Assembly (NCBI GenBank): GCA_029260165.1
Contig: JAJDDT010000042.1
Span: forward strand, 62,001-126,000
Direction of reading: 5' to 3'
Length of the DNA: 64,000 nucleotides
Origin: Phycisphaerae bacterium
GTDB taxonomy: Bacteria > Planctomycetota > Phycisphaerae > UBA1845
Shown here: positions 1,157 through 19,322 of the stretch, piece by piece
Layout of the letters: every line of letters starts with the position of its first letter
How positions within the stretch are numbered: the stretch's first letter is position 1
Notes under the pieces: model-generated
The model's input: the letters and a program-made list of their open reading frames with translations, nothing else
What the model was told of the DNA's origin: nothing
Database searches by the model: none
Position numbers and translations under genes: made by a program

Positions 1157-1158
1157 TT

Positions 1159-2616
1159 ATGGTTGATCTGGCCAGACAATCTGTTCGGCGTGGGATGATT
1201 TTACCGCTGATGCTGCTCGTGTTGGTGCTGCTGGGCATGTTGGCGGCGAGCGGGTCGTTTTTTGTCCATGCGGATATGTCAGCCACTCGGTCGGGTGCGC
1301 GTCGGTTTCAGACGCGGATGGCGGCTGAGGCTGGTTTGGAGAAGGTGAAGTTGTTCCTGCGCGATCATCGGCTTGACGACGCGAGTTGGTATGACAATCC
1401 GGAGCAGTTTCATCGCGTGATTGTCTGGACGGAGACCGAGCAGGTTGAGGAATACGGTTCGGTCGAGGAGTACGATGAGCCGACGCAGAATTATCGGTTT
1501 AGTGTCGTGGCGGACAATCCGGACGATGACGAGGTGCTCGTTCGGTTTGGTGTGACGGATGAAGCCTCCAAAATCAATATCAATACGGCTCCCGTGTCGC
1601 AGTTGGTTGCGCTGATCACGCCGTTTATCGACGAGGAGGATGAGTGGACGGCTGAGCAGATTGCGGATGCCATTCTGGATTGGCGTGATGGTGATACGCA
1701 GCCGCGGCCGTTTGGGGCTGAGGCGGAGTATTATTCGCTTTTGGATCCGCCGTACGCGGTGAAAAACGGTCCGTTTGATACGGTGGAGGAATTGTTGCTG
1801 GTTCGGGGGATGACGGCTGACCTGTTGTATGGTGAGGATGTGGACCGCAACGGTCTGTTGAGTCCGAACGAGGACGATGGGGATTTGATTTTTCCGGACG
1901 ACGATCTGGACGGTTTTCTCAATCGCGGTGTGTACCCGTTTCTGACGGTGTATTCGCGTGATTTCAATACCGCAGCCGACAACAGTGCTCGCGTGTATCT
2001 GTTTGGGGATCCTGGTACGGTGACGTCGCAATTGACCGGGTTGGTGAGCAATGCGTCGCAGGTGGATTTCATCGTGAGTGCGGCGGCGGGTACGCCTCGG
2101 ATAACGTCGTTGGGGCAACTGATGGACCCGAGGGTTACTGAGGATGGTAATTCGCAGGCATCGTCGGTGACGTTGGCGGACATGGGCTGGATCACCGATC
2201 GGATCAGTCTGTCGCAGGAGCCTGATCGGTTGGGGTTGATCAACATCAACACAGCCTCTCCGACAGTGTTGCGGACGTTGCCGTCGTTGGAGGAGGAGGA
2301 TATTCAGTTGTTGCTGGAAGCCCGGGCGGAGGTGCCGTCGGAGGAGCGGGTCGATCTGGGTTGGGTGGCGGCGATTGTCGGGGCGGAGAAATTCAAGGCG
2401 ATCGAGCCCTTGCTGACGGTTCGGGCGATGCGGTTTCATGTCGAGGTGGTTGGGTATGGCGATCACCTCGGGACGATGACGCGTCTGGAATCGATTTTAG
2501 AGATGCGTGGTCCGGTCGCGCAAATCATTTACTTGCGTGATCTGACGAATCTGGGTACGAGCTATCCGGTGCGGTATCCAGTCGGAGATGAAGAACTTGT
2601 TGGGTACACTCGTTGA
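1159..2616 (+). CDS. gspK: GspK-like type II secretion minor pseudopilin
   Basis: Large minor pseudopilin that caps the T2SS pseudopilus with GspI and GspJ. The N-terminus carries RRGMILPLML followed by a hydrophobic helix. It lacks Glu at mature position 5, the known GspK exception among pseudopilins. Two helix-hairpin-helix-like segments with ININTA motifs (SKININTAPVSQL near residue 135, LININTASPTVLRTLP near 360) are the hallmark of the T2SSK family. At 485 aa it is longer than the roughly 330 aa of proteobacterial GspK. ATG 1159 was chosen over TTG 1153; neither has a clear Shine-Dalgarno. The end overlaps the next gene by 29 bases, implying translational coupling. Confidence 0.87.
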   Translation: MVDLARQSVRRGMILPLMLLVLVLLGMLAASGSFFVHADMSATRSGARRFQTRMAAEAGLEKVKLFLRDHRLDDASWYDNPEQFHRVIVWTETEQVEEYGSVEEYDEPTQNYRFSVVADNPDDDEVLVRFGVTDEASKININTAPVSQLVALITPFIDEEDEWTAEQIADAILDWRDGDTQPRPFGAEAEYYSLLDPPYAVKNGPFDTVEELLLVRGMTADLLYGEDVDRNGLLSPNEDDGDLIFPDDDLDGFLNRGVYPFLTVYSRDFNTAADNSARVYLFGDPGTVTSQLTGLVSNASQVDFIVSAAAGTPRITSLGQLMDPRVTEDGNSQASSVTLADMGWITDRISLSQEPDRLGLININTASPTVLRTLPSLEEEDIQLLLEARAEVPSEERVDLGWVAAIVGAEKFKAIEPLLTVRAMRFHVEVVGYGDHLGTMTRLESILEMRGPVAQIIYLRDLTNLGTSYPVRYPVGDEELVGYTR

Positions 2617-4177
2617 CAAACCGATCCTGGCGGTTGACTGGGATGTCAGGACGCTTCGCATTGTTCATGCGCGTGTGAGCAAAAGCTCGGCTGATATCGA
2701 GCAGGTGCTCAGTATCGCGATTCCGTCCGATGTGGACCGTGATGATCCCGAGTCGATGGGGAAGTTTGTCCGTGCGGCGCTCACGAAGGCGGGGATTACG
2801 ACCAAACGTGTGTTGTTCGATGTTTCCCGCGACCACGCCAACATCTACACCCTGATGCTGCCGCCTGCGACGTTGAACGATCTGGCAGGGATGGTGCAGA
2901 TGCAGATTCCGCGCGAGTTGCCCTTTCCGGTGGAGCAGGCTGCGATCGATTTTGCGGTGTCGCCGGAATTGGAAGGCGACAATCGACGGGTGTTGGTCGC
3001 GGCTGTTCAGCGCGAGACGTTGAAACATTTTACCGATGTTTTCGAGCACGCGGGTTTGAAGCTTGAACGCGTCGGGTTGCGTCCGAATGCGAATCAGTTC
3101 GCGGTCAACGAGATGCTCGAGCCGACGCAGCCGGACTATGTCCTGTTTGTCGATGTTGGTCCGGTGACGACGGAAATCACGGTGCTGCGTCGCGGTCAAC
3201 TGGTGTTTTCACGAGCGGCTGCGGTGGTGGTTCCGGATGCTTTCGACCAACCCGTGGCGGAACCGGTCGAACCGATGCCGGGGGATGGTGAGCCGGAGTT
3301 GCGACTTGCGACAGCCCCGACGCCGGAATCGACGTTGGCGGGCGTCGTTCGCGAGTTGACCATTGAGGTGACGCGTTCGATCGAAGCCTATCGTGCGACC
3401 GACCCCGAGGCGCATGTCGATCATATCGTCATTGGTGGTAGTTGTGATGTTGAGGACGCACTTTCCGAGGCGATTCAGCGTCAATACAGCATCAGCACGC
3501 AGCCGTACAACCCTGCGAAGTGTTTTGGATGGTCCGCGGATGAAGGGGCGGAAGCGGGCGCGTTTGCGTCGACGTTGGGTATGGTGCTGGGGCAGTTCAA
3601 GCCTGACGAGTTGAAGTTCAACCTGATCGATCCGAAGAAGCAGGTGAGCGTTGCTCAGCAGCGGATGCGCCGTGCGCCGGTGGCGGTTGTGACGGGGGTG
3701 GCTGCTGTTGCGGCGGTGGTGGTTTGTTATGTCAATTTTGTCAGGCCTTTGCATGTCGAGAACAAGGAGCTGGCAAGACAGAAGGCTGAACTGAGGGGCG
3801 AGCGCGACAGTCACGACGAGTTCAAGAAGCTGGTCAGGATTCTGGATGATTACGAGGACAACCGGGTGGTGTGGCTTGATGAGCTGCACGATGTTTTGTC
3901 GGCGGGTGTGCTCGCGGACAACAAGAGCATCGTGTTCAATCAGATCAATATGTCGAAGCGACGGGAACGCATCACGCTGCCGTTTCGGGCGGTCGCGGGG
4001 GCGGTTCCGAATGATGCGGTGAAGGATCTGGAAAATGTGAAGGCGGGTGAAGATGGTCATCTGAAGTACGATGCTGTTTTGGGTCCGACCAGTACGAAAG
4101 CGGGCGAAAAGTATCCGTTGATGGGAACGTTGAACGTTGGCCTGCTTGGCAACGAAAAGAAGGACGAGAAGAAGTGA
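2588..4177 (+). CDS. PilM/GspL-like inner-membrane assembly protein
   Basis: Predicted T2SS/type IV pilus inner-membrane platform protein that links the cytoplasmic ATPase to the periplasmic components. Residues 1 to about 345 form a PilM/GspL actin-like cytoplasmic fold, with an N-terminal DxxxxR-type opening (AVDWDVRTLRIV) and a later VDVGPVTTEITV phosphate-loop-like segment. A single membrane helix lies at about 361-383. It is followed by a charged, coiled-coil periplasmic part like GspL-C or PilN. At 529 aa it reads as PilM joined to PilN, which is the GspL plan. It overlaps gspK and precedes the GspM-like gene. GspL and PilM are both reasonable names. Confidence 0.8.
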   Translation: MKNLLGTLVDKPILAVDWDVRTLRIVHARVSKSSADIEQVLSIAIPSDVDRDDPESMGKFVRAALTKAGITTKRVLFDVSRDHANIYTLMLPPATLNDLAGMVQMQIPRELPFPVEQAAIDFAVSPELEGDNRRVLVAAVQRETLKHFTDVFEHAGLKLERVGLRPNANQFAVNEMLEPTQPDYVLFVDVGPVTTEITVLRRGQLVFSRAAAVVVPDAFDQPVAEPVEPMPGDGEPELRLATAPTPESTLAGVVRELTIEVTRSIEAYRATDPEAHVDHIVIGGSCDVEDALSEAIQRQYSISTQPYNPAKCFGWSADEGAEAGAFASTLGMVLGQFKPDELKFNLIDPKKQVSVAQQRMRRAPVAVVTGVAAVAAVVVCYVNFVRPLHVENKELARQKAELRGERDSHDEFKKLVRILDDYEDNRVVWLDELHDVLSAGVLADNKSIVFNQINMSKRRERITLPFRAVAGAVPNDAVKDLENVKAGEDGHLKYDAVLGPTSTKAGEKYPLMGTLNVGLLGNEKKDEKK

Positions 4178-4212: not shown

Positions 4213-5871
4213 TTGTCGGAACGCGAGAAAAGATTAGCGACGTTTCTGGGCATCGCCGTGGCGGGGCTTGTTGGCTGGCGGGTAGTCTGGCCTGCGGTCC
4301 GGAATGCCACCGTGGAGATGGCCAACGAAAATCGCAGGCTTCAGGACGACATACTCGACCTTCAGGACGACCTTGACAGCATCGGTGTTTATCAGGATGC
4401 GTATAAGGAATACCTTGCCCGCACGGGCAACACCAATCCCGACGTCGTTCGCGACAACATGCACGCCAAACTGATGGCGCTGACGCGGGCAGCCAACCTG
4501 TCCGACGTTACTGTCACGCCCAAACGTCCCGGTGAGTACAAGACCCCCGGAAAGCGTCGTCGGAAAACGGACATCAGGACGGTCGGATTCACGATTCGCG
4601 GAGATGGTCAGCTCAAGCAGACAGTCGAGTTTCTCAAGTCGTTTTACGAGTTGCCGTACGTCGCGCAGATCACGGATTTGAAAATCGTGCCGAAGAGATC
4701 GCGGCGGTCGAGGCGCGGACCGAAGGGGCCTGATCTTGTCAGCATGACAGCCACGATCGAATCGCTGGTGCCTCCGACTGATCCGCTGCATGAGATCAAT
4801 CCGGAGCTGCTGACGGCGGTGGACTCGGTCACGATGCACGGTGGCAAAGAATACGCGATGATCTGGAAGCGTGATCCGTTCAAGGAGTACGTCAAACCGC
4901 CGCCACCCCCCGTTCGGCGACCGGATCCACCCAAACAACCGGTGAAGCGCCCCGACCCGCCAAAGCAACCAATAAAGCGTCCGGATCCGCCTCCTCCACC
5001 GCCCCCACCGGTCGGCGATCCGGAGCGGACATTGAAGCAGGTTCGCATGACGCTGTTGTATGGCGTTGACGAGGTGCTCGTCGTCAATCCGGGCAACGGT
5101 TCGAGCGAGTACGTTGGTATTGGTGATCAACTTGACGGCGGCGAGGTGCTGATGGTGCACTCGTTGGGGCCGATCACGCGTCGCGAGGATGAGAAGATCC
5201 GGTTTTATCCCCTGGGTATGAAGCTGGCTTACTGCGTCGAGATCGACCAGGCCGGGGACCAATATCCTGAGGTTGTGTATGCGTTTGACGAGGTGAAGGA
5301 CGATCTGATTCCGCCGGAGCCTGAGAAGCCGATGGAACCGGATGATGAGGACGATGATGACGAGGATGCGCAGGAGGACGAACGGCGTGATCCGGTCAAG
5401 CCACCAGGTCCAAAGCCGTCATCCGGGAAGTCGCCGACGGTGAAACCGTCGCTGGTTGCGCCGTCATCTGCCAAACCGTCGTCGGCCAGGCCCGGAGTTG
5501 GAAAGGTTGATTCCGCGTTGCCGAGGGCAAAATCTCCCAATCCGAAACCGGGCGCGGTTGTGCCGAAAGTCAGGCCCGTTCGTCGTCCGTCGCGCGATCG
5601 TCGCGCTGGCGGTTCACCGAGGTCATCGGTGTTGTTTTTTACCCGTCCGTTCGGGCTTCAATCCTCGACGATCAAGGTGTTGGGGAATGGTGCGATGCCC
5701 GACCCCAAATTATTGAACCGCGTCGGCAGGAAAACGCTGGCGGATGTGATTCGTTCCACACAGAATCGTGGTACAACCAGGGCGACGGCGGCCAATCGGG
5801 CGCGAAAAGTCCGACCGGGGCGAAATACCGGACGATCCGGGCCGGCGATCGACAAGAAAACGCAGAGATAG
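4213..5871 (+). CDS. GspM/PilO-like protein with Pro-rich linker and GspC/PilP-like region
   Basis: Residues 1-10 are cytoplasmic, 11-29 a membrane helix and about 35-60 a coiled coil, followed by a PilO/GspM-like alpha-beta domain to about residue 195. RDPFKEYV then leads into a proline stretch (about 226-266) and a short beta-rich module (about 272-346, ending LGPITRR...FYPLGMKL). RDPF plus a Pro linker plus a small beta domain is the plan of GspC homology regions and PilP, so I infer a fused GspM-GspC role. The last 180 residues are disordered: an acidic patch at about 375-391, then KPS/PKP repeats and a basic tail. The start is TTG 4213. The fusion is inferred from motif order, not alignment. 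Confidence 0.68.
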   Translation: MSEREKRLATFLGIAVAGLVGWRVVWPAVRNATVEMANENRRLQDDILDLQDDLDSIGVYQDAYKEYLARTGNTNPDVVRDNMHAKLMALTRAANLSDVTVTPKRPGEYKTPGKRRRKTDIRTVGFTIRGDGQLKQTVEFLKSFYELPYVAQITDLKIVPKRSRRSRRGPKGPDLVSMTATIESLVPPTDPLHEINPELLTAVDSVTMHGGKEYAMIWKRDPFKEYVKPPPPPVRRPDPPKQPVKRPDPPKQPIKRPDPPPPPPPPVGDPERTLKQVRMTLLYGVDEVLVVNPGNGSSEYVGIGDQLDGGEVLMVHSLGPITRREDEKIRFYPLGMKLAYCVEIDQAGDQYPEVVYAFDEVKDDLIPPEPEKPMEPDDEDDDDEDAQEDERRDPVKPPGPKPSSGKSPTVKPSLVAPSSAKPSSARPGVGKVDSALPRAKSPNPKPGAVVPKVRPVRRPSRDRRAGGSPRSSVLFFTRPFGLQSSTIKVLGNGAMPDPKLLNRVGRKTLADVIRSTQNRGTTRATAANRARKVRPGRNTGRSGPAIDKKTQR

Positions 5872-5969
5872 CAGCCCCCTGGCTGCAACCTGCGCGGGGT
5901 CGTCGTTGAATGATCGGGTGTTGTTGGATGAATAGCAGGGAACCCCCGCTCGAAGCGTGGAGATCAAAC

Positions 5970-8900
5970 ATGACAGAATCGATGATAAGAATTACCCCCG
6001 GAAACGATCGACGTTCGGTCATCGGACTGATCGTTCTGGCGCTCGTCTACGTTGGGTTGGCGGGGACGGTCCGCGCGGGCGAACCTGGCGAGGAGTCCCG
6101 AGTGTTTGCGGCTGCCTTCGGAAGCAGTCAACCCAACCCGGTGATGCAGGCCCGTGACAATCCGCGATCCGCCGGCGGTGCCAGGAATCGATCCACACGC
6201 AAACCTCGTTCCACTCCCAAACCCAAACCCACGACGCCGGGTCGTAATCGCGGGAAGCAGAATACGCCCGCGCCAAGTGCCAATGTTGAAAAGGTCAGGG
6301 GCACGATCAATCTCGAAGCCGAGGAATTGCTGAAACCGGCTGAGGAACGAAGTTACAACTTCAGTCTCGTGGACGGGACGTATGCGAATCTTGTTGAGAA
6401 TTTTGCGCGTATGTCCGGGTTGGGCGTGATTGGTGACGCACCACAAGGGCAGGTGTCGTTTGTGAGCACGCAGGAGATGGATTTTCGATCGGCGTTGAAT
6501 CGCGTGCGCATGCTCCTGTTCAAGTTCAGTCCGATCGAACCCTATTGGCTGATGTACGAAGAGGAACATCTGGAGGTGCTCCGAGTCAATGACGTATGGC
6601 GGGTGATTGATCAGGACAAGTACCTGTTCATGAATGTGGCGGATTTTCGAGCGGCGCAGAAAAAGGGTGATCTGTATACGACCGACCTGGCCATGGTTCT
6701 TTACACGCCGACGGATACGTCTGTTTCGGATTTCACCATGCTGCGTGATTTCATGCCGGACTATGTTCGTATCGCGCCGATGGGCGGTACCAACTCGATG
6801 GCTATCTTCGCGCTGGTCAGTGATATCGAAAAATACCTGTCGTTGATCAAGCTGTTTGAGGGGGCGGGCGAGGATCCACGTGTTCTTATAAAGCTCGCCG
6901 TGAACCATCTTATCCCGAGCGTTGCGGTCACGACGCTGAACACGCTGATGGACGACCTGCAGGGTGTGGGTGGTGCAAAGCGTCCTCGTGGCAGGGTGCA
7001 GGACCCGACGGCCAGTCTGCCGGGTGAGCAGACCGTGCTCTTTCCTGATGACAATCAGGGCGTGCTCATCGTTCGGGCGATTCCTCGCGTCATCAAGGAT
7101 ATCGAGGAGATGCTCGCGTTCATCGATGTTCAGTTGGACGCGGAATTATCACCGGTTGTTATTCCGATCAGGTACGCCAGGGTTGACGAGGTTCGCGATC
7201 AGATTCACAGTTTGATTTCGGCGAGTGGTGGTGTCGCCGGAAAAAGTTCCACGGCGAAGCCTCGGCGGAACAAAGGCGGCAAACGCGGGGGCAGCAGCGC
7301 TCCGATTGTGACCGAAGGCCTGCTGCTGCTGGCCAATTCCAGAACGAACGAATTGATCGTTCGGGGAACCGAGGATGAGGTGAGCAGGGTCCGCCGTTAC
7401 ATTCGCCTGTTCGATGTTCCGGCTGATTCCGACAAGCCCGTCATTGTTTCGCTACAGCATGTTTCCCCGGAAGATATCAACACCACGATCACGCAGATTG
7501 TCCAGGGGCAGCGGGGAAAACGGGCGGCTGCGGAGAGACCCTTCAATTGCTATCCGGAGCCTGTGTCGGGGGCTTTGATTCTCGTCGGTGCCAGGGAGGA
7601 TGTCGAAGCCGCCAGGGATTTGATTGCCATCATGGATGTCGCGGCTGCGACGCCGACCCTGCATGCTCATCGGCTCGAGAATGCGTCCCCGTCGGTTGTG
7701 ATGGATCTGATCACGATTCTGGACGCCCCGGGGGCACCCTCGCCCGGAGGCAAGCGCCCACCGCGGGGGAGGAAAGCCTCCGGCAGCACATGGTATGTCG
7801 ACAACACGACCAACACGATTTACATGATCTGCACGGATGACGAATGGAACGAAAAGTATTTCCCGGTCATCAAACAAATGGACGAGGATGCTGCCGAGAT
7901 TCCGAGTCATGTGCTGATCGAAGTGAAGAACCTTGCGAGCGATGAAGCCGTCAATATTCTCCGTGAGATTTTCGCACCAGGTGCCAAGGGAGCGAACGCG
8001 TTTCGAATCATCGCCGCAAGCAACGGTATTGTCGTGGACGGTGCCTCCCCTGCTAAAATCGAACATATCCGCGAGGTGTTGGCAGACATCGACATCGATT
8101 CGGAAGGTCGTCAAAGGCGAATTTTCACGCTTGAATTCGCTGATCCCAACGAGATCAAAACCGTCATCGACTCGGGGATTGTCGGGTCGGGTCGTGTGAG
8201 GCGTGTCAAGCGTCCGCAGCCCGGAGCCGTTCCGGGTGTTATCACCACGGTCGTTGGTGATCTGCTGATCGTGAGTGCCTCGGCTGACGAATTGCTCGAT
8301 ATTGAAGAGCTTGTGAAGCAGTTGGACGTTGTCAGTGAGTCCGAGCGGTCCATTCGTGTTTACAGCGTACCGCCTGGTTTCGATGTGGAATCGATTGCAA
8401 CCCAGTTGGAGCAGTTGATCCGAACCACCGCACCTTCGGGTGCCCGTCGCCGAACCAAGAACCCCGCCTCGCAAGGGACTGACGGTTCGATTCAAATCGT
8501 CTCCCAGCCGATTTCGAGAAAGATTCTGATCAGAGCGCCGGAGGGGGATTTCTCTATGATTGAGGAGTCCTACGCGCTGCTGACCGCCGACGCGGAAATC
8601 GAACCGGTCGAGATTCGTTTCTTCCCGGTCGAGCATGTTGATCCCGGCGACGTTGCCAACATGATCGAGCCTTTCCTTCAAATGCGTGCGGAATCGTTGA
8701 TCAAATCGGGCGAATTGCGCGTCGAACCCGATGTTAGCAAGAGAAGTGCCATCACGACGGTGTCCACGATTCGCGTGTCGGCTGATCTTCACGGTGACCG
8801 TGTGTTGGTTGCAGGTCCCACGTCAATCATCCTTGAAGCAGAGCAGTTGATTCGGGAGATCGATCAGCCACCTGCGTCCACGGACGATCGCATTCTGCGA

Positions 8901-11900
8901 ACCATCGAGTTGTCACGCACGACGCCCGATCAGATGATCACCACCATCAAAGCCATGATCAACAGTGGATCCTCGTCACCCCGCAAGCCTGATCGCCCGC
9001 GCCGCCCGAGAATCCGCAAGTCCAAGTCCAAGTCCAAATCCAGTGAATCCGGTTCCGCCCTTGCTTCGGCCACCTCTGATGGTCCTCTGGATGTGACCAT
9101 CGCGTCCGCCCCGGGTGGAAACGCCGTGATCGTCAGTGGCGATGCCCATGATGTGGACGAGGTCGAAGCCTGGATTCGCAAACTCGACGGCGAAGCCACC
9201 GGCAGCACCGTTCTGAAAATCTACAACATCGTCAACGCCGAGGTCGAGGAGATGGCTGACACCATTATGGCGTTGTGCGATTCCGGCTCGCCGGGCAAGT
9301 CAAAACCGAAGGATGACGATTTTTCTTTCTACGAGCCAAATCCCGTGCGCAAAGGCGCGGACATTACGCTGACAACAGACTACTGGAACAAACGCATCCT
9401 GGTTCGTGCGACGCCCGCCAAGATCTACGAAATCGATCAGATCATCGAGCTGTACGAGGGTAAGGAGGGCGAGGAGCCCGAATTCCGGGGCGGCGGCGAG
9501 AATGTCCCGCTGTTGTTTTTTGAACTCGCCCACGCCGATCCGTTCGACGCCGAGTATCAACTCGAGAGCATTCTCCCGGTGGTCTGGACCCATTCAGAGG
9601 AAATCCCCGACATCGACTACATCCCGGGTACGCAGTTGCTCGTCGTCAAAGCCAAGACCGAGTATCACTCCGAGATCAAGGGATACATCACAAAATACAT
9701 CGACAAGCTTGACGAAGAGGGAACGCCCGATCGGGTCGTCAAGTTCAAGGATATCACCGGTATGACCGCCAGTGACATGGCAGGGATACTTAAGTCTCGT
9801 CTGCCCCATCTCAATGTTGATTTGATTCAGATTGGCGAAGATATTCCGCAGTTGAAGCCCGTCGGTCCTTATAGTCCGCCCGCCGAGGCACAACCGCAAT
9901 GCGTCCTGCCGGCTTCGCTGGCCAAACTCCTGTCGGTCACCACGATTTCTCAGGCGCCATCCGGTCGCGACAATGAGAAGGAAAAAGCAGCGACAAAAAT
10001 CGCGCAAGCATTCGTTGCGCAAAGCGAAGGCGTCGGGTTGGACGGAGGAAACAGCGACACGAACAGCGATGCCACCGGCGAAGAGTCCGTCGCAGACGAG
10101 CCAATCACGATTCGATTCGACGACCGCACGGGTGTCATCGCCCTCGAGGGCGCGCCCAAAGACGTCGATGCCATTTCGGAACTGGTCGAGGAGTTGATCA
10201 AACAACGCGAATCCTCCTCACGCAAGATGGAGGTCCGGGTCTACCGTGTGCGCTACCGCGACGTGAATGAAGCCACCAACGTCCTCATGAACGCCCTTGG
10301 GATCCAGCGAGCAACCCAGGCCAACCGTGGAAACGCCGCAGCACAAGCCGCCCAGCTTCGTCGCCAAATGCAGCAAATGCAGCGAGCGCAGAAGGCTGCG
10401 GGGGGACGGCCGGGCGCTCAGCCCAACGCCGTGCCGCAACCGAATATCGACCCGCGCACGGGAATGCCCATGCAGGAGGAAAAAAAAGAGGATTCCAAAA
10501 AATCAGGCCTCGGTGACGTTCGCATCACGCCCGATCCCAAAAACCGCTTCATGATCATCACGGCTGCCACCGAGGATTTCCCGGTCATCGTCGAGTTGCT
10601 CGCGACCATCGACCGACCGTCCGAGGTCGACAAGAGTTTCAAAATCTACAAACTCACCAAGCTCATCGCGTCCGATGTCGAGGGACAACTAAAGGAACTG
10701 CTCGGCATCAGTGCGGCCAAAGCATCCACCCGCAGACCGACAGCCAACCCAGGCACGCGCAATCGTCGTGGCGGCAACAATCAAAACCGCGCCAATCAAC
10801 AGATAGAAGACGCCCTGATGCAATTCGCCAGCCTCGGTGCCAATGGCGGGACCATCGACGTTGCCTCGGACGTCACCGTCACCAGCAACCCATCAGCCAA
10901 CACGCTGCTCGTCAATGCCCCGGAACCGGTCCACGAAATCATCGCCGAATTCATCAAGGATCTCGAAGCGCAGGACATCCCCACCCTCGAAACCCGCACC
11001 TATCGGATGACTCATTCCGATGTCGCCGCCTCCGCAGAACAACTCACAAAAATGTTCAGTCAGCGCAAGGGCGATGCTGGTTATGATCCCAACGCGGTCA
11101 ACAAAGCCACCTTCACGGCGGACCCACGCACGAACACCCTGATTGTCCAGGCATTTGACACCGATTTCGACAAGATCGAGCCGCTGATCACCAAACTCGA
11201 CGAGGACATGGGTGACGACGCCGACGTCCTCACCTTCAAACTCGAATACGCCGACGCAACCCAGACCGCCCGAACACTCAACGAAGTCTATGGACAGGGC
11301 GGAGGTAAACGCGGTGCCAAGGGTGTGAAAATCGTCGGCGATCCGTCGTCAAACACGCTGTTTGTGACGGCTCCACAAAATCAGCGGGACGACATCTCCG
11401 CGCGCATCATCGAAATCGACGCCCAGGCCGCCGACGTCATCGAACCGAGAACGATTAAAATCGTCGCGGGCGATCCCGACAAGATCGCCCAGTCGCTCAA
11501 GACGGTCTTTACCAGCGGCGGCGGCAAGTCGGGCAAAGGGGCCATCACCATCGTCGGCGACAGCGTCGGCGGACAGGTGATCGTCTCCGCACCGGACGAC
11601 GTCTTCAACAAAATCGAGTCGCTGACCCGGAAAATGGACCAGTCTACCATCGGCGAAAAAGTCAACATGCGCGTGTTCAAACTCGAACACGCCCAGGCCG
11701 TCGAAGTCCATGGCCAGATCATGAACCTCGTCCGACAGATGGGTCAGCAACTCGGTCCACAGGCGCGTGAAATGGGGGTGTTCACGGCAGTCCCCGACGA
11801 ACGCTCCAACGCGATCCTGTGCATGGGCAGCCCGATTTCATTCGTGCTCGTCGAAAAAGCGATCAAGGAAGTGGACGTCCCACCCACGGACGCAACCCAG

Positions 11901-13715
11901 GTCGTCACCGCCATCTATCGCCTCGTCCACGCAGACGCAACGGAACTGGCCAGCAACATTACGCGCATCTTCACGGCCAAGCGAGGCACCGGCGTCGAAC
12001 CACCCAAGGCAGAAGCCAACCGCTCCAACAACATCCTCATCGTCCGAGGCACCGAATCGCAAATCAAACAAATCAACGAAGAGGTCATCAAGCCTGTCGA
12101 GGACAAAGCCTCCGGACACAACGTCATTCGCGAAATCGTTGCCCTCGAACATGCCGACGCAGCCGACATCGCCCGAATCCTCAACGAAAACATGAACAAG
12201 ATGAGCGGTGGGCAGCGCAAGGGTCAGCCAATCTCGGTGATCGCCAACGCGGCGCTCAATTCCATTGTCATCAACGGTGCCGAGTCGGACGTGACCGATC
12301 TCGTCACCCTTGCGAGTGATCTCGACAAGGAACCCTCGCACGCAACCGACCGCAGTGTCAGGAATTTCCCCCTCGCCCACACCAACCCGTGGGTGATCGC
12401 CGACGCGATCCGACAGATCTACCGACCCAAACGCGGACCCTCCAACCCGGCTGACGAAGTCGTCGCCATCGCCGAAGGAACCGCCATGGCGGTCATCGTC
12501 TCCGCCTCACAGAAAAACATGGCCAGGGTCACCGAGCTGATCGCAGAGCTTGACAAACCGGGCGCTTCGGACAGCGACGTTCACGTTGTTGAAATCAAAC
12601 ACGCCGACGCAGCCAGCGTTGCTCAAAGCCTGACCCAACTCTTCGTGCACGGCGGTGGAGGCAGAAATGTCCGCGGACAGTCCACGATTCAAATCACCAA
12701 CCCGAGAGGCAGCGACATGCTGCTGATCAAAGCCAATCAGACGGAACTCGACCGAATTCTCGCCGTGGTCGAGGACCTCGATCAATCGTCAGGCAATACC
12801 GACGAAATCAAGATGATCGTCCTGAAAAACACCGACGCCGACATGATGCAGCAAGCCATGGAAAACTACCTCCGCAAACCGGGTCAGCGCGGCGGGGAAC
12901 TCGTCGGCGACGTACGCATGACCGCCAACACCCAGAACAACACGCTCATGGTCTCCGGAGATCCCGAGGAAGTCGCCCGCATCGAGGGTATCATCAGCAA
13001 CCTGGACGTCGAAGTCGAAGGCGCTGCCAACGCACCACGCATCATCCAGCTCGAACACGCCCGCGCCTCCCAAATTCAACCAACGCTCGACGAAATGTTT
13101 GGTCAGGCCAGCGGTAAGGGAAAACGCGGCAGAAACAACAAGACCGAAGCACCGATCATCGTTGCAGATGACGCCAGCAACACGTTGTTGGTCCGTGCAA
13201 GGCCCACCGATTTCGCCATAGTTGAGGATCTCGTCGAAATGCTCGACAAAAAACCCGAAGAGGATCGGGAACCGATTCGAATTGTTTCCGTCGCTGAGGG
13301 TGTCAAGGCAGCCGACATGGCTGACCTCATTCAGTCCACCGTGAACGAAAGTGAGCGCATCCGTGCTGAACAAACCGGTGGCGACGCTGCCACCATCGTC
13401 GTCAGTGCGTACCCACGCGGGAACGGATTGATCCTGGCTGGTTCACCCGCACTCTTTGAAAATGCCACAAAACTGATCCGCGATCTCGAGACGATGGGTG
13501 TGACGGGCGGAAACAGCGTCCGAATCCTCAAGACGAAAAATATTTCTGCGAGCGAAATTCAGCGTTTACTCAACCAGGTTATTGACGAGAATGGTCGGTC
13601 AAGCGGAACGTCATCGGGCGTCCGCCGGTCGGGGGGTCGAAACAATCGATCGTCCGGTCGAGGCTCGAACACGCGGCGTCTGCCGCGACGAAACAGCCGG
13701 GGAGGGCGTCGTTAA
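5970..13715 (+). CDS. Giant secretin N-domain repeat protein without a secretin barrel
   Basis: A 2,581-aa predicted exported protein. ATG 5970 was chosen because GGAG lies 7 bases upstream and the protein then begins with a classical signal peptide (hydrophobic about 16-33, cut near VRAG); ATG 5910 lacks both. After a low-complexity stretch there is an N0/STN-like domain (about residues 90-180). About 25 repeats of 70-110 aa follow, each with hydrophobic-x-x-ADA-type helices, an NTLIVxA-type strand and a closing (I/L)xxLD helix: the secretin N1/N2 fold (Secretin_N). The 26th repeat is cut in half, followed by a Ser/Arg/Gly tail. No C-terminal secretin beta-barrel is present. Gly/Lys/Arg-rich loops interrupt many repeats. 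It probably works with the true secretin encoded next. Confidence 0.85.
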   Translation: MTESMIRITPGNDRRSVIGLIVLALVYVGLAGTVRAGEPGEESRVFAAAFGSSQPNPVMQARDNPRSAGGARNRSTRKPRSTPKPKPTTPGRNRGKQNTPAPSANVEKVRGTINLEAEELLKPAEERSYNFSLVDGTYANLVENFARMSGLGVIGDAPQGQVSFVSTQEMDFRSALNRVRMLLFKFSPIEPYWLMYEEEHLEVLRVNDVWRVIDQDKYLFMNVADFRAAQKKGDLYTTDLAMVLYTPTDTSVSDFTMLRDFMPDYVRIAPMGGTNSMAIFALVSDIEKYLSLIKLFEGAGEDPRVLIKLAVNHLIPSVAVTTLNTLMDDLQGVGGAKRPRGRVQDPTASLPGEQTVLFPDDNQGVLIVRAIPRVIKDIEEMLAFIDVQLDAELSPVVIPIRYARVDEVRDQIHSLISASGGVAGKSSTAKPRRNKGGKRGGSSAPIVTEGLLLLANSRTNELIVRGTEDEVSRVRRYIRLFDVPADSDKPVIVSLQHVSPEDINTTITQIVQGQRGKRAAAERPFNCYPEPVSGALILVGAREDVEAARDLIAIMDVAAATPTLHAHRLENASPSVVMDLITILDAPGAPSPGGKRPPRGRKASGSTWYVDNTTNTIYMICTDDEWNEKYFPVIKQMDEDAAEIPSHVLIEVKNLASDEAVNILREIFAPGAKGANAFRIIAASNGIVVDGASPAKIEHIREVLADIDIDSEGRQRRIFTLEFADPNEIKTVIDSGIVGSGRVRRVKRPQPGAVPGVITTVVGDLLIVSASADELLDIEELVKQLDVVSESERSIRVYSVPPGFDVESIATQLEQLIRTTAPSGARRRTKNPASQGTDGSIQIVSQPISRKILIRAPEGDFSMIEESYALLTADAEIEPVEIRFFPVEHVDPGDVANMIEPFLQMRAESLIKSGELRVEPDVSKRSAITTVSTIRVSADLHGDRVLVAGPTSIILEAEQLIREIDQPPASTDDRILRTIELSRTTPDQMITTIKAMINSGSSSPRKPDRPRRPRIRKSKSKSKSSESGSALASATSDGPLDVTIASAPGGNAVIVSGDAHDVDEVEAWIRKLDGEATGSTVLKIYNIVNAEVEEMADTIMALCDSGSPGKSKPKDDDFSFYEPNPVRKGADITLTTDYWNKRILVRATPAKIYEIDQIIELYEGKEGEEPEFRGGGENVPLLFFELAHADPFDAEYQLESILPVVWTHSEEIPDIDYIPGTQLLVVKAKTEYHSEIKGYITKYIDKLDEEGTPDRVVKFKDITGMTASDMAGILKSRLPHLNVDLIQIGEDIPQLKPVGPYSPPAEAQPQCVLPASLAKLLSVTTISQAPSGRDNEKEKAATKIAQAFVAQSEGVGLDGGNSDTNSDATGEESVADEPITIRFDDRTGVIALEGAPKDVDAISELVEELIKQRESSSRKMEVRVYRVRYRDVNEATNVLMNALGIQRATQANRGNAAAQAAQLRRQMQQMQRAQKAAGGRPGAQPNAVPQPNIDPRTGMPMQEEKKEDSKKSGLGDVRITPDPKNRFMIITAATEDFPVIVELLATIDRPSEVDKSFKIYKLTKLIASDVEGQLKELLGISAAKASTRRPTANPGTRNRRGGNNQNRANQQIEDALMQFASLGANGGTIDVASDVTVTSNPSANTLLVNAPEPVHEIIAEFIKDLEAQDIPTLETRTYRMTHSDVAASAEQLTKMFSQRKGDAGYDPNAVNKATFTADPRTNTLIVQAFDTDFDKIEPLITKLDEDMGDDADVLTFKLEYADATQTARTLNEVYGQGGGKRGAKGVKIVGDPSSNTLFVTAPQNQRDDISARIIEIDAQAADVIEPRTIKIVAGDPDKIAQSLKTVFTSGGGKSGKGAITIVGDSVGGQVIVSAPDDVFNKIESLTRKMDQSTIGEKVNMRVFKLEHAQAVEVHGQIMNLVRQMGQQLGPQAREMGVFTAVPDERSNAILCMGSPISFVLVEKAIKEVDVPPTDATQVVTAIYRLVHADATELASNITRIFTAKRGTGVEPPKAEANRSNNILIVRGTESQIKQINEEVIKPVEDKASGHNVIREIVALEHADAADIARILNENMNKMSGGQRKGQPISVIANAALNSIVINGAESDVTDLVTLASDLDKEPSHATDRSVRNFPLAHTNPWVIADAIRQIYRPKRGPSNPADEVVAIAEGTAMAVIVSASQKNMARVTELIAELDKPGASDSDVHVVEIKHADAASVAQSLTQLFVHGGGGRNVRGQSTIQITNPRGSDMLLIKANQTELDRILAVVEDLDQSSGNTDEIKMIVLKNTDADMMQQAMENYLRKPGQRGGELVGDVRMTANTQNNTLMVSGDPEEVARIEGIISNLDVEVEGAANAPRIIQLEHARASQIQPTLDEMFGQASGKGKRGRNNKTEAPIIVADDASNTLLVRARPTDFAIVEDLVEMLDKKPEEDREPIRIVSVAEGVKAADMADLIQSTVNESERIRAEQTGGDAATIVVSAYPRGNGLILAGSPALFENATKLIRDLETMGVTGGNSVRILKTKNISASEIQRLLNQVIDENGRSSGTSSGVRRSGGRNNRSSGRGSNTRRLPRRNSRGGRR

Positions 13716-13839: not shown

Positions 13840-16800
13840 ATGAAATCACGGTCAACGCGCATTTTCCCCACACGCTGTACCGTCGTCTCGGCCCTTGCGG
13901 TCGCGATCCTGCTGCCGGTCATCACCGCCGCCCAGCAAAAGACGAAATCGCCATCCGACCAGGAAACCGAAGCCATCCGCCGCATGGTCGCCGCCGGTCA
14001 GAAACAGCAGACCGCCGACGCGCCGCTTGATCTGAAGTTATCCGGAAACGACGTGACTGTCGAGACGCTTCCCACCGGTGAAATCGTGCTCATGGGCAAC
14101 GACGCCGACCTCGACATCCTCGAATCCTTCATCAGTATGCTCGATCGTCAGATTCCCGAAAAAGACATCGTCATCCACACCCTCGCAAAAGCAAGCGCCG
14201 AACAGGTCGCCCAAAAACTCGAATCCATCATCCCCGAGGTCTTTCCAGGCATCCAGGAACTGCCCGATCAAAGCGTTTCAGTCCAGGCCCTCTCATCCTC
14301 CGTCCTGCTCATCGCCGCCCCGGCTGAACGCATCGATCGCATCATCCAGATCATCGAAGCCATCGACGAGGTCGAAGCCTCCCTGCAGGATTTTGAAGTC
14401 ATGCGATTTCAGATCAAGTACCGAAAAGCCGGCGAAGTCGCGACCCAGCTCGAAGAGGTCGTCAAGAAAATCCAGACCAAGCAGGGTGCGGACGCAGCCG
14501 AGGAAGTAACCTTCGACGTCAACGACGCAGACAACAGCATCACCATCTTCGGCCCCGAAACACTCAGGGATCAGATTCAGAAAATCATCGACACCATCGA
14601 CGTCGAACCCGCCGAAGGTTTCAGCCACCTCAAACTCGTCATGTACCCGCTGCTCAACGTACAGGCTGACGACATGAAATCGGTGCTCGAGGAAATGCTC
14701 AAATCTGCCGAAAGCGGGCAGGATGTGCAGGAAGCCATCCGCCGCCTCAGCGTTATCAAGCGGGGTGCCGACGGTTCACAGTCCGAGCTTCAACCCCTCG
14801 ACCTCGACAAACCGCTTCGCGTGTTGGCTGACAAGGGCACCAATTCGCTCATCATCGCCACGATCGAGAAGAACATCGAACCCCTTGGCGAGATCGTCGC
14901 TCTGCTCGACGGTGTGCCCATCGCGCACGAAATGGGACTGGAAATCTTCCCGCTCAAATTCGCCGACGCCGACGCGCTCAAGGAACTCATGGAGCAGATG
15001 TTCGACGACGGCAAGAAACTGCCCGAGCGCGCTCCAGGCGGCGATCGCACCGAAGCCATCCCGCCCGACTCGGTCGGTTCCGCTTTCATGCACAACATCA
15101 ACATCAAAGCCGACAAACGCACCAACATCCTGATCGTCTCCGGTCGTCCGGGGCAACTCGCCCTCGCCCGCACCGTGGTTGAGGAACTCGACGTCCCGAT
15201 GTCAGCCGCCAGATTCCCGCTCAGGCTGCTTTTCTGTGGTCAGAATGTGGACTCAGGTCGCGTCAAAGCCATCGTCGAGGAACTATTCACCAGGCGAAAG
15301 GAAACCCTCGAAAAGACCGATGCAGGCGAGCTAGCCGTTGCCCGCGAGGAGGTGTTCATCGCCGTCGATTCGCGCAGCAACGCACTGATCGTCTCCGCCA
15401 GTGAATCGAACTACGACGAAATCCGGAGCGTCGTCGATGAGTTGAACGTCGCCATCGATCGCCTCGTCGATAACATCCGAATCATCAATTGCGAAAACAC
15501 GCACGCCGCCGACCTCGCCACCAAAGTCGACGAGCTTTGGGAGCGAAAATCGCGTCTGCGAAGCCAGGACGAACTGCCGGAAGACAAACCGATCCTCGTC
15601 GCAGACACACGCTCCAACGCACTGATCGTCGCCTCTAGCAACGAGGATTTCGCCGAAATCAGTGATCTGGTCGCCAAGCTCGAAGCCCAACCGCTCTCAC
15701 CGATCGCCGAAATCCGCCTGCTCACGTTGCAAAACAACGACGCAAGCCAGGTCTCCGACATGCTCAAGCAGCTCTTCGAGGAACGCGCCCAGCAACGCCT
15801 CGCCCAGGGGCAGGAAGAGAACCCCGCCGACCGGGTCGCCGTTGCAGCCGACCCTGCCACCAACACCATGCTCATCGCCTCCAGCAAGGAAAACTACAAC
15901 GAGATGATGCGCATCATCGACGCCATCGACGTCGAACCCGACATGGACGGCGTGGTCAATATCTACGTCCTGCAAAACGCCGAAGCCCAGCCCGTCGCCG
16001 ACAAGATTCAGGAACTGTTCGACCAGGGTCTCTACAGTCCAATGGCCGGCATCGGTGACAACGCCATCGTCGAGGAACGCAAGAAAGTCGCCATCATCGC
16101 CGACGTCCGATCCAACGCGATCATCGTCAGCGCCTCCAAGCCGAATCTTTCCATCGTCCAAAGCCTGATCGAACGCATGGACGGTGAAATCTCCGACCTC
16201 TTCGCCGAAAACTACAAACTCATCCCACTGCTCCACGCCGACGCCGTCAAACTCGTCGGTATGCTCGACAAGCTCTTCGACGGCCAGGCATCCGCCGCCT
16301 CGGATCAGGACATCTATCCCAAACCGACCATCATCGCCGACGCCCGCAGCAACACGCTCATCATCACAGGCACCCGCGATGCCCTCGGACGCTGCGGCGA
16401 CCTCGTCAGCCAGCTTGACCGACCCGCTGGCCCGCCAACCTCCGTCTTCGAGGTCTACACGCTCGCCCACGGGTCCGCCGCCAAGCTCGCCACCCGCATG
16501 CAGGAACTTTTCGACCAGCGATCCGAAGGTCAGGACGACGCAGCAACCCCCATATTCATTCAGGCGGACGAAACCTCCAACAGCCTCATCGCCAGCGCAG
16601 CCCGCGACGACCACGTCCTCATCGTCGGTCTGCTCGAATTGCTCGACAAACCATCCAACATCGCAAAACAGTTCCACATTTTCCCGCTGCACGCAGGACG
16701 CGCCGAAGCAATCGCCGAAACCATGGACCAACTCTTCCAGCAACAGGCGGAAGGCTCCAGCGGTCGAGCCGACGCGATCGCCGTCCAGGCAGACCCACGC

Positions 16801-18789
16801 AGCAACTCGCTGGTCGTCTGGGCATCCGCCTCCGAGATGGACAACATCGCGACCATCGTCGAAAAACTCGACACCGCCCGACCCGCCGTCGAAATGATGA
16901 TGCGCGTCGTCCGACTCAAGCAAGCCCTCGCCGAGGACTTCGCAGAATCCTTCGAGGAAACACTTATGGGCGGTCAGACCAGCGGCGGTGATGACCAGGA
17001 AGCCATCATCGTCTCCTTCATCCAGAAAAACGATGACGGCACCGAGGTTCTCCGCAAGCTCCTCCGCCAGGACATCACCATCAACCCGGACCCACGAACC
17101 AACTCCCTCATGGTGATGGCCCCTGCGGAAAGCATGGATATGCTCGAAGCCCTTATCCTGGACTTCGACAGCATCGCACCCGCCGCCGCCGAAATCAGCT
17201 TCTACCAGCTCGCCAACGCAGACGCGGAAGAGGTCAAGGAAAGACTCGACGAACTATTCAGCACCGAGGAACAGGACAGCGACGACAATCTTGAGCAGCG
17301 AATTGTTTTCGGTGGCGAGGGAGGTGGAACGGTCCAGGTCAGCGGAGACGCTGGTGGAAACCGGCAGATGATTCGGTTCACCGCCGATCGTCGAACCAAT
17401 TCCATCATCGCCGCAGGCAACCGCGTCGATCTCGACATGGCTGAGGAACTCATCCGCATGCTCGATTCCCAGGACATCGACGAACGTATTCAGGAGGTCT
17501 ATCGCCCCAGACACATCACCGCCTCCGTCATGGCCGAAAACCTGACGCAGTTTGTCGAAGCCGAAAACGATGTGCTTGGCGAGCTTGACGACGAAAGCTC
17601 TGTCCGCCGCCGCGCCGAAAAACAAATCAGCGTCGTCGGTGATGAGGACACGAACCTCCTTCTCGTCGGTACAAGCCCCAAATACTACGACGACGTCAAC
17701 GAACTCATCCGCCAGATCGACCGACCCGAACCACAGGTCATGATCTCCGTGCTCATCGCCGAGGTTTCCGTCGACGATCGCTTTGAACTCGGCGTTGAAT
17801 TCGCCGCACAGGATTTGCACTTCTCACAAAACGCAACCACAGGACGCAACGGTGTTATCCAGGGCAACGGATTCGACGTCATCGCAGGAACCGATATCGG
17901 AGCCGCCGGCGCGGGATTTGGCGGACTTTCACTCACCATCTCCGGTGAGGATTTCGCCTTCCTTTTCCGCGCTCTCGACTCCCAGGGCCAACTCGAGGTC
18001 CTCTCCCGTCCGACCCTCCTCGTCCAGAACAACGCCACTGGCAACATCACCATCGGTGACCGCGTGCCCATCGTTTCGGGCACCACCAGCGCGGGAGGTC
18101 AAAGCTCAACCCAAATTCAGTACGAAGAAGTCGGCATCATTCTCGACGTCACTCCGCACATCAATCCCGATGGCTATGTGAACCTCGAGATCGCCCCCGA
18201 AATCTCCCAGATCTCCAACCAGGCGCTGCAGGTCTCCGAAGGTTTGGTCGCGACCGTCTTCTCCCAGCGAACCGCCGAAACCACCGTCACCGTGCGCGAC
18301 GGCGAAACCGTCATCCTCGGCGGCCTTATCACCGAAACCGTCGAGGATGCCGAAACCAAAGCGCCAATCCTCGGCGACATCCCATTTCTCGGAGACTTCT
18401 TCAAAACGACCACGAAAATCTCAAACAAGACCGAATTGCTCATCGTTCTCACCGTCGATGTCGTCCGCGACGAATACGAACTCCGCGAAGCCTCCGAACA
18501 CGAACGCGACCTGGCTGAGTTCCTCCCGGATCGCGTCAAACGACATCGCCTCATGCAGGGCATGCGCATTAAACCGGACGACGACGTGTTCGGGCCCGTT
18601 GAAGACATCGAAAACGGCATGCCCGCAGAGCCTGCAACAACCCCCAAACGCGACAAGGGTATCTACGGCCCAAGCCTCAAAACCTACGGACCTGCCACCC
18701 CGACCGCAGCCAAAAAGGTCAACCAAAACCCGGAACACGCCGCCGCAAGGCGGTATGGTCCCAGGCTTGTCCGTGACGATTCCAAATGA
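13840..18789 (+). CDS. gspD: Giant GspD-like secretin with about 14 N domains
   Basis: A 1,649-aa outer-membrane secretin. AAGGAAG lies upstream of ATG 13840, and residues 1-31 form a signal peptide (ILLPVITAAQ). Residues about 60-1295 hold about 14 Secretin_N-type repeats, each with an N(A/S/T)LI(I/V) strand. Residues about 1296-1535 are a canonical secretin domain: QVMISVLIAEV, SRPTLLVQNN, VPIVSG, YEEVGIILDVTPHI, VRDGETVILGGLI and PILGDIPFLGDFF. E. coli-type GspD has four N domains, so this gate would carry a very long periplasmic vestibule. The tail (about 1560-1649) is basic and Pro-rich and may help outer-membrane targeting. It is co-directional with the giant partner 124 bp upstream and overlaps the following lipoprotein gene by four bases. 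Confidence 0.93.
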   Translation: MKSRSTRIFPTRCTVVSALAVAILLPVITAAQQKTKSPSDQETEAIRRMVAAGQKQQTADAPLDLKLSGNDVTVETLPTGEIVLMGNDADLDILESFISMLDRQIPEKDIVIHTLAKASAEQVAQKLESIIPEVFPGIQELPDQSVSVQALSSSVLLIAAPAERIDRIIQIIEAIDEVEASLQDFEVMRFQIKYRKAGEVATQLEEVVKKIQTKQGADAAEEVTFDVNDADNSITIFGPETLRDQIQKIIDTIDVEPAEGFSHLKLVMYPLLNVQADDMKSVLEEMLKSAESGQDVQEAIRRLSVIKRGADGSQSELQPLDLDKPLRVLADKGTNSLIIATIEKNIEPLGEIVALLDGVPIAHEMGLEIFPLKFADADALKELMEQMFDDGKKLPERAPGGDRTEAIPPDSVGSAFMHNINIKADKRTNILIVSGRPGQLALARTVVEELDVPMSAARFPLRLLFCGQNVDSGRVKAIVEELFTRRKETLEKTDAGELAVAREEVFIAVDSRSNALIVSASESNYDEIRSVVDELNVAIDRLVDNIRIINCENTHAADLATKVDELWERKSRLRSQDELPEDKPILVADTRSNALIVASSNEDFAEISDLVAKLEAQPLSPIAEIRLLTLQNNDASQVSDMLKQLFEERAQQRLAQGQEENPADRVAVAADPATNTMLIASSKENYNEMMRIIDAIDVEPDMDGVVNIYVLQNAEAQPVADKIQELFDQGLYSPMAGIGDNAIVEERKKVAIIADVRSNAIIVSASKPNLSIVQSLIERMDGEISDLFAENYKLIPLLHADAVKLVGMLDKLFDGQASAASDQDIYPKPTIIADARSNTLIITGTRDALGRCGDLVSQLDRPAGPPTSVFEVYTLAHGSAAKLATRMQELFDQRSEGQDDAATPIFIQADETSNSLIASAARDDHVLIVGLLELLDKPSNIAKQFHIFPLHAGRAEAIAETMDQLFQQQAEGSSGRADAIAVQADPRSNSLVVWASASEMDNIATIVEKLDTARPAVEMMMRVVRLKQALAEDFAESFEETLMGGQTSGGDDQEAIIVSFIQKNDDGTEVLRKLLRQDITINPDPRTNSLMVMAPAESMDMLEALILDFDSIAPAAAEISFYQLANADAEEVKERLDELFSTEEQDSDDNLEQRIVFGGEGGGTVQVSGDAGGNRQMIRFTADRRTNSIIAAGNRVDLDMAEELIRMLDSQDIDERIQEVYRPRHITASVMAENLTQFVEAENDVLGELDDESSVRRRAEKQISVVGDEDTNLLLVGTSPKYYDDVNELIRQIDRPEPQVMISVLIAEVSVDDRFELGVEFAAQDLHFSQNATTGRNGVIQGNGFDVIAGTDIGAAGAGFGGLSLTISGEDFAFLFRALDSQGQLEVLSRPTLLVQNNATGNITIGDRVPIVSGTTSAGGQSSTQIQYEEVGIILDVTPHINPDGYVNLEIAPEISQISNQALQVSEGLVATVFSQRTAETTVTVRDGETVILGGLITETVEDAETKAPILGDIPFLGDFFKTTTKISNKTELLIVLTVDVVRDEYELREASEHERDLAEFLPDRVKRHRLMQGMRIKPDDDVFGPVEDIENGMPAEPATTPKRDKGIYGPSLKTYGPATPTAAKKVNQNPEHAAARRYGPRLVRDDSK

Positions 18790-19322
18790 TCGTATCCAAC
18801 CGTCACACAAAGGGAATCTGCGCGCTGATCTTCGCGACCATCGCAGCCACAGCGCTCACGGGCTGCGACACGTCCAGTGCAGGACGCTCGTTCAAGCTCC
18901 ACGAGAACATCGTCACCGTTCCACGTTTCTACAACAAAGAGAATCCGTGGATCAATTTCGAAGACCCGCCCACCGACGAGCCACAGGGAATCAAAATCGT
19001 CCTTTACATGCAAAGCCCGGACCAGAAACTCGGCATCTACGGCGACGGCACGATCGTTGCGAATATCTACGATGTTGAAAAAACGTCCGGCGGACCCGAG
19101 AAAAGAACCCACCTGAAACAATGGGCTTTCGACCCCGACCAGGCCGCCATTTTTCATGGAAAACGAAGTCGACTAGGCCAACCCTACTTCCTTGTCCTCG
19201 CATGGCCCGAACTGAACCTTGTCGGAAAGGAAATCCTGATCGCCATCTCGTTCCAGCGAAAGGATGGCCGACTCGTCAAAGCCCGCCCCGTCCACATAAG
19301 AGTTCCCGGCCCGGCGAGATGA
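18786..19322 (+). CDS. Predicted lipoprotein in the T2SS operon
   Basis: A 178-aa protein with a lipoprotein signal ending in a good lipobox (ALTGC, Cys about residue 27). The mature part is beta-rich with no family I recognise. ATG overlaps the secretin stop (ATGA), so it is translationally coupled to gspD. Coupled lipoproteins next to secretins are often pilotins or assembly factors, and that is a possible role here, but the sequence does not resemble known pilotins such as PulS or AspS closely enough to say. It is followed by a second lipoprotein with another ATGA overlap. Confidence 0.8.
   Translation: MIVSNRHTKGICALIFATIAATALTGCDTSSAGRSFKLHENIVTVPRFYNKENPWINFEDPPTDEPQGIKIVLYMQSPDQKLGIYGDGTIVANIYDVEKTSGGPEKRTHLKQWAFDPDQAAIFHGKRSRLGQPYFLVLAWPELNLVGKEILIAISFQRKDGRLVKARPVHIRVPGPAR

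Follow-up and report, generated by a model that had tools for sequence, protein, structure and literature searches.

A barrel-less array of secretin N domains in a Phycisphaerae T2SS locus is probably the proximal part of a giant secretin encoded by two genes

Results

The window (the whole stretch of DNA that was analysed, 64,000 nucleotides from a Phycisphaerae bacterium) carries a T2SS locus. Genes for GspE, GspF, GspG, pseudopilin-like proteins, GspK, a PilM/GspL-like protein and a GspM-like protein lie 5′ of the gene for a barrel-less array of secretin N domains, P1, which is followed by the genes for a secretin, P2, and for a lipoprotein (Table 1).

Table 1. Features of the P1-P2 locus (positions in the window)
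Feature	Position	Strand	Basis
GspK	1153..2616	+	PF21687, E 6e-17; NF037980, E 3e-23
PilM/GspL-like protein	2588..4177	+	PF11104, E 3.5e-23
GspM-like protein with Pro-rich linker and weakly GspC-HR-like domain	4213..5871	+	PF04612, E 0.0017
P1, barrel-less N-domain array	5970..13715	+	Open reading frame, Pfam and family-trained HMM
Signal peptide of P1	5970..6077	+	By eye; hydrophobic peak
N0 domain of P1	6333..6611	+	Profile of 22 relatives; PF21305 in relatives
26 Secretin_N repeats of P1 (first repeat, 6666-6857, weak)	6666..13496	+	Pfam and HMM
Long loop inside one P1 repeat (A/B junction)	9696..9983	+	Hydrophobic stretch QCVLPASLAKLLSVTTISQ
Terminal half repeat (beta1-alpha1) of P1	13521..13604	+	HMM positions 1-24; profile-profile, N columns 1-23, E 5.5e-6
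Ser/Arg/Gly tail of P1	13605..13712	+	Sequence and alignment
P2, 14.5 N domains and secretin barrel	13840..18789	+	Pfam
Signal peptide of P2	13840..13935	+	By eye; hydrophobicity
Half repeat (beta2-beta3-alpha2) at the start of P2	14026..14151	+	Profile-profile, N columns 47-82 of 82, E 4.2e-8
14 complete Secretin_N repeats of P2	14173..17733	+	HMM
Secretin barrel domain of P2	17971..18468	+	Pfam (PF00263)
Lipoprotein directly after the secretin	18786..19322	+	LTGC lipobox by eye

The reading frame of P1 is uninterrupted from 5910 to 13715 (plus strand); the ATG at 5970 gives a protein of 2,581 residues, and 5910 is a possible earlier start. Pfam detected 22 Secretin_N stretches (whole-protein E value of 1.3e-168), an HMM trained on the family gave 27 matches, the final one spanning model positions 1 to 24 only, and inspection by eye gave 26 complete repeats followed by a terminal half. 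One repeat (residues ~1275 to 1432, numbered from 5910) contains a very long internal loop. Foldseek matches of the P1 repeats were led by T2SS secretins, and the C-terminal repeats could be aligned across families (27 rows). The tail is rich in Ser, Arg and Gly up to the stop codon and resembles the alpha1/beta2 loops found elsewhere in the array. PF00263 was not detected in P1 at E values up to 1, and a barrel search of the chains of the window matched P2 and not P1, thereby ruling out a hidden barrel in P1. An earlier note on this DNA had described P1 as an array of about 25 repeats of the Secretin_N fold that has a signal peptide, ends in half a repeat and a Ser/Arg/Gly tail instead of a barrel, and precedes a real secretin, and these observations bear out that description.

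No Pfam match named the N0 region of P1 itself. The profile built from this region in 22 relatives matched XcpQ/GspD N0 structures in the PDB (E value of 0.0025), secretins accounting for 8 of 10 matches, and PF21305 (GspD N0) was found in 4 of these relatives (best E value of 1.2e-9). At the level of sequence, the first domain of P1 is an N0 of the GspD kind.

P2 consists of 1,649 residues with 14 Secretin_N stretches and the Secretin domain (PF00263, E value of 3e-47), and it scores as a GspD with TIGR02517 (628 bits). N0 was not seen in P2, and a BON domain was absent from its Pfam matches at E values up to 1. The N terminus of the protein comprises the signal peptide, a linker and then the beta2-beta3-alpha2 half of an N domain. 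Laid in line, P1 and P2 provide N0, 26 N domains, one cut N domain, 14 N domains and the barrel, which is the domain order of any GspD, with N0 located in P1 and the barrel in P2. The GspD-type features (N0, Secretin_N domains, a C-terminal barrel and a T2SS neighborhood) are all present in P1 plus P2, the C-terminal barrel being missing from P1 alone, and the closest PDB entries, in sequence as well as in structure, are T2SS structures of the GspD type. Because P1 has N0 and P2 is both oversized and opened by the complementary half repeat, we read the two proteins as one T2SS secretin. It is likely, in our judgment, that this secretin comprises N0, ~41 N domains and a barrel, and that it is cut in the alpha1/beta2 loop of one N domain. 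The earlier note had missed the N0 domain of P1, the size of P2 (14.5 N domains) and the matching half repeat with which P2 starts.

P1-like matches were obtained in all 40 genomes searched (that of the window and 39 relatives), and the gene boundary between P1 and P2 recurs among relatives with separate signal peptides. For 32 pairs of adjacent chains (the window and 31 others), the region following the last complete repeat of the first chain and the region preceding the first complete repeat of the second chain were aligned separately. In profile-profile comparisons, the front half matched columns 1 to 23 of the N domain (E value of 5.5e-6) and the back half matched columns 47 to 82 of 82 (E value of 4.2e-8); the back half of G001 was read separately from this profile set. 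A strict automatic rule for half domains was passed by 27 of 48 adjacent pairs (15/36 in Phycisphaerae and 12/12 in Verrucomicrobia), counted after removal of duplicate rows (L090, L092, L099, L101, L106 and L189), most failures occurring because single short halves are too divergent to reach the threshold alone. A frameshift between P1 and P2 is ruled out by the recurrence of the cut with two signal peptides. Separately, the P1-like chain of G002 contains an in-frame TAG (L058:8746-8748) in the alpha1/beta2 region of another repeat, which is either a sequencing error or a fresh cut.

Two-gene secretins were first noticed in two Verrucomicrobia loci. A search of 57 genomes of the class Verrucomicrobia gave matches in 12, including the genome of the query itself; 12 loci were read, of which 11 (the query's own included) came from this search and one, L139, from another genome, and the weakest match (G197) was left out. 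In all 12 loci, the first chain comprises N domains and a front half and the second chain a back half and the barrel, the secretin being of ordinary size. These secretins (L148:8295-10985, L139 and L190 to L199) are split inside the last N domain, in the same loop as P1/P2 and with both halves kept, and in a quick FastTree analysis the barrels group as a clade of their own. The other matches of two of the genomes, G148 and G149, were also fetched and include giant single chains, of 3,971 and 3,984 residues with 43 N-domain matches and a barrel (L187:1-11913, plus strand, and L188, minus strand), alongside the small split secretin.

Relatives also make the secretin as one chain or as three chains cut in a loop of the same kind. 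Complete single chains of the order contain 4,144 to 4,890 residues and 36 to 45 N-domain matches, with the barrel at the end. Single chains of 4,754, 4,834, 5,073 and 6,169 residues in other families of the class have 50, 51, 50 and 63 matches, respectively, so that complete single chains of the class range from 32 to 63 matches with the N-domain HMM. The 6,169-residue chain (L169, G078:C18, minus strand) is the largest seen. Three chains occur in two genomes of family f2 (G024 and G031), in which the second cut is located at the repeat matching the one that holds the long loop of P1. Among 120 genomes of the class, 108 gave a barrel match at an E value no higher than 1e-30, and in at least 31 the barrel lay within an open frame of 2,000 residues or more. 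Outside the class, the same HMM detected 1 to 4 N domains in the secretins fetched from proteobacterial and similar sources, and about 6 to 10 and 8 to 13 in Pirellulales-like and Gemmata-like planctomycetes, respectively.

The joined chains were inspected for signal-peptide-like segments in loops of 20 residues or more between N-domain cores, a loop being scored as hydrophobic if it contained a 14-mer above the limit. Seventeen distinct single chains of the order were measured (duplicates L105=G134 and L112=G129 dropped). Of their 268 such loops, 23 were hydrophobic, and all 23 were located at two junctions, A/B and B/C, which correspond to gene boundaries in other genomes and were defined by wide windows of 2,900 to 3,700 and 1,350 to 1,960 residues from the C terminus. 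At the B/C junction, which is equivalent to the P1/P2 boundary, 16 of the 17 chains had a hydrophobic loop. Several junction loops read as whole signal peptides with an AxA motif, such as RKSTIVASSMPLLLMQVAFSTAVAQ in G038. Among 15 AB chains, five (G004, G006, G011, G021 and G098) had no loop above the hydrophobicity limit and two (G013 and G016) had as their sole hydrophobic loop one that differs from the long A/B loop, indicating that the A/B relic is less regular than the B/C relic. In Phycisphaerales proper, similar stretches lie ~24 to 27 N domains from the barrel in most, not all, chains. The most economical explanation of signal-peptide-like stretches inside joined chains is that they are relics left by the joining of genes, and the simplest reading of the junction loops is that genes were cut or joined there more than once. 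Split and joined forms group into clades in both barrel trees (IQ-TREE with 63 rows, and a quick FastTree with 68 rows that excluded rows in which the contig ended early or the upstream gene was out of view), and neither tree polarizes the ancestral state.

The naturally joined junction of one relative (L097) was modeled with AlphaFold (476 residues; alignment of 21 rows composed only of sequences from the window and related loci). The mean pLDDT was 81.7, with values of about 90 for the two halves (residues 161 to 188 and 291 to 321) and below 50 for the disordered linker. The N1-N2 region of GspD (3ezj_C, residues 101 to 235) was superimposed on residues 158 to 398 of the model over 121 residues (Z score of 9.5, rmsd of 5.1), and 5zdh_A (residues 101 to 318) on residues 158 to 476 over 187 residues (Z score of 11.4, rmsd of 6.2). 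The next domain can account for at most 74 of the 121 aligned residues. At least 47 therefore come from the cut domain, which exceeds one half, so the two halves form one GspD-like domain in the model. The prediction thus supports folding of the joined halves of the cut repeat as one N domain in this naturally joined relative. KH-domain rows among the structure matches are unrelated proteins that share the fold only. When the end of P1 was modeled alone (530 residues, 10 rows), the mean pLDDT was 69.8 and six complete repeats were obtained; in the terminal half, the beta1 strand was lost (pLDDT of about 41) and the helix was kept. The contrast with the joined model fits a domain in need of a partner, a point that is suggestive only, the model of the P1 end being weaker overall.

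Upstream of P1, the HR profile of the GspM-like protein matched GspC (7oio) with an E value of 0.053, PF11356 was detected in 1 of 14 members of its family (E value of 0.1), and a phmmer search of the PDB with the protein alone returned nothing relevant. This protein is a candidate inner-membrane partner of N0, and it possibly joins the functions of GspM and GspC in one chain. Downstream, the lipoprotein is a possible pilotin; sequences similar to it were found beside the secretin in both split and single-chain relatives. The same genome also encodes two PilQ/GspD-like secretins of ordinary size (600 and 648 residues; L018:4096-5898 and L019:4115-6061, both on the minus strand).

Discussion

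Usual secretins contain three or four domains that form stacked rings. Like GspD (3ezj, 5zdh and 5wq7), P1 plus P2 has N0, N1-type domains and a barrel in this order and is encoded in a T2SS locus; unlike GspD, it has about 41 N1-type domains rather than 3 and two chains rather than one, and one of its N domains is cut. The domain content and order of the pair, the complementary halves, the joined and three-way-cut homologues, and the relic signal-peptide-like segments are read directly from the sequences. P1 is a real and unusual protein; rather than an independent sleeve, it is most likely the proximal segment of a giant secretin made of two chains. Its place in the channel would probably be next to the inner membrane.

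We propose that P1 (N0, about 26 N domains and a half) would form the inner-membrane-proximal part of the giant secretin and P2 (14 N domains and the barrel, preceded by the second half) its outer-membrane part, each being exported by Sec through its own signal peptide. P2 would form the barrel, perhaps with the help of the adjoining lipoprotein, and the beta1-alpha1 half of P1 would pair with the beta2-beta3-alpha2 half of P2, so that each subunit gains one completed N domain. A single ring of the stack would then consist of two chains and lock two tubes end to end, with N0 docking at the far end on the inner-membrane platform. Such a secretin would run through the periplasm as a conduit of about 42 rings, with a probable length of about 100 to 170 nm if all rings stack; this length assumes 25 to 40 Å per ring, an estimate based in part on the Thermus PilQ figure. 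The planctomycete periplasm can be greatly enlarged, and such a conduit would suit it. The composite domain between separate chains, the stacking of the rings, the docking of N0, the length and the function are what we infer. Of the roles envisaged for P1 in the earlier note, that of a periplasmic tube is the likeliest; a sleeve around the secretion channel and a scaffold for substrates both fit badly, because P1 has N0, the P1-like part and the barrel form a continuous chain in single-chain relatives, and P2 completes the half repeat of P1.

Several other explanations were weighed against this proposal. P1 and P2 could be one secretin in which most N domains do not stack and instead form a flexible string of beads tethering the channel or gathering substrates. 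Long loops are present in many repeats (1,029 non-core segments of 20 residues or more in 127 proteins) and the number of N domains differs between relatives, as might be expected of such a string; to our knowledge, other solved multi-N secretins also stack their N domains, which counts against it. The Foldseek matches of the P1 repeats, led by T2SS secretins, point the same way, as does the PilQ secretin of Thermus thermophilus, described as stacking six N domains as rings over 350 Å in total (PMC5745081), and we regard largely unstacked domains as unlikely. The expansion of the repeats could also be a neutral ratchet, in which duplicates are tolerated, length has no function, and splits and joins are accidents. 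The variable repeat number would agree with this, and so would the persistence of both split and joined forms, which the barrel trees cannot polarize. However, at least 31 of the 120 genomes examined in the class retain single frames of 2,000 residues or more, neither half of the cut domain has been lost, and an alignment of the C-terminal P1 repeats across families is still possible (27 rows), which makes purely neutral expansion less probable still than unstacked domains.

We give little credence to a P1 that would act as a separate periplasmic sleeve or scaffold around a complete P2 channel. P1 does carry a signal peptide of its own, and a barrel and 14 N domains are present in P2 by itself, but N0 is found in P1 and not in P2, the cut domain is divided between the end of P1 and the start of P2, and in single-chain relatives one covalent chain runs from the P1-like part to the barrel. 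An assembly or sequencing error that divided one long gene at the P1/P2 boundary might be suspected from the joined genes of relatives; with a separate signal peptide on each side of the boundary and the cut recurring in 32 pairs taken from different genomes, it can be set aside with near certainty. With P1 and P2 taken as two parts of one secretin, a simple ruler function for the array meets several objections. The number of N domains varies widely among relatives, which a strict ruler would not predict, and the presence of the 600- and 648-residue secretins in the same genome indicates that spanning the envelope does not always depend on 40 rings. The crateriform complexes of Planctopirus, described as sitting where the two membranes are close (PMC5394234), also count against it.

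Secretins lengthened by additional N domains and secretins encoded by several genes have both been described. T. thermophilus PilQ has six N rings, is 350 Å long, is described as bridging most of a wide periplasm and is called one of the largest secretins (PMC5745081). P1 plus P2 resembles PilQ in carrying extra N domains in its sequence; PilQ differs in having six rings and one chain. In the rhizobial type III secretion system, the N-terminal and barrel parts are encoded by two genes, rhcC1 and rhcC2, as in P1/P2, and are reported to be of distinct origins, RhcC2 being Tad-like with a BON domain and attributed to partial gene replacement (PMC3973906, PMC3574062, PMC3459982, PMC4500985). A Tad-origin barrel with a BON domain was not found in P2, and, in contrast to RhcC1/RhcC2 as these sources present them, P1 and P2 are co-linear segments of a single protein, which relatives still produce as one intact chain. 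The closest parallel is the mitochondrial T2SS, in which GspD is described as split into several polypeptides: GspDN1 with a full N domain, GspDN2 corresponding to no more than the C-terminal half of one, and GspDN3 to no more than the N-terminal half (PMC8134430). Half N domains on separate polypeptides are thus common to this system and to P1/P2 (the window and 31 other pairs). According to the same source, the mitochondrial proteins are eukaryotic and have lost N0, whereas P1 keeps it. The halves in P1 and P2 occupy the flanking ends of adjacent genes, so that their order is evident, unlike that of the mitochondrial pieces in the account given there. The statement in the earlier note that no characterised equivalent was known thus does not extend to split secretins as such; it stands for giant co-linear ones, since a giant or co-linearly split T2SS secretin of planctomycetes or Verrucomicrobia was not found in a literature search covering titles and the beginnings of abstracts, with many subscription papers and bioRxiv outside its scope.

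Arrays of about 41 N domains here, and of up to 63 elsewhere, would be on a different scale from known secretins. We tentatively suggest, as an idea with a fair amount both for and against it, that secretin tubes in Phycisphaerae and in some Verrucomicrobia reach 40 to 60 rings, ~100 nm or more in length and several megadaltons in mass, that these would be the longest secretin channels known, assembled from two or three chains via composite N domains, and that the same trick explains the mitochondrial half N-domain proteins. If true, planctomycetes would have a direct conduit from the inner to the outer membrane. The cut within an N domain persists in two bacterial phyla and indicates how a secretin can assemble from several chains, and the P1/P2 cut offers a testable model for the half-domain proteins GspDN2 and GspDN3, which it may explain.

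Two minor observations concern annotation and the surroundings of the locus. With TIGR02517, P1 scores 477 bits, above the cut-off of 351, on the strength of its repeats alone; a protein devoid of the channel domain thus passes the NCBIfam cut-off for GspD, which is a trap for annotation. A protein of 1,470 residues with seven FG-GAP_2 stretches is encoded 5′ of GspE (L016:6657-11069, plus strand).
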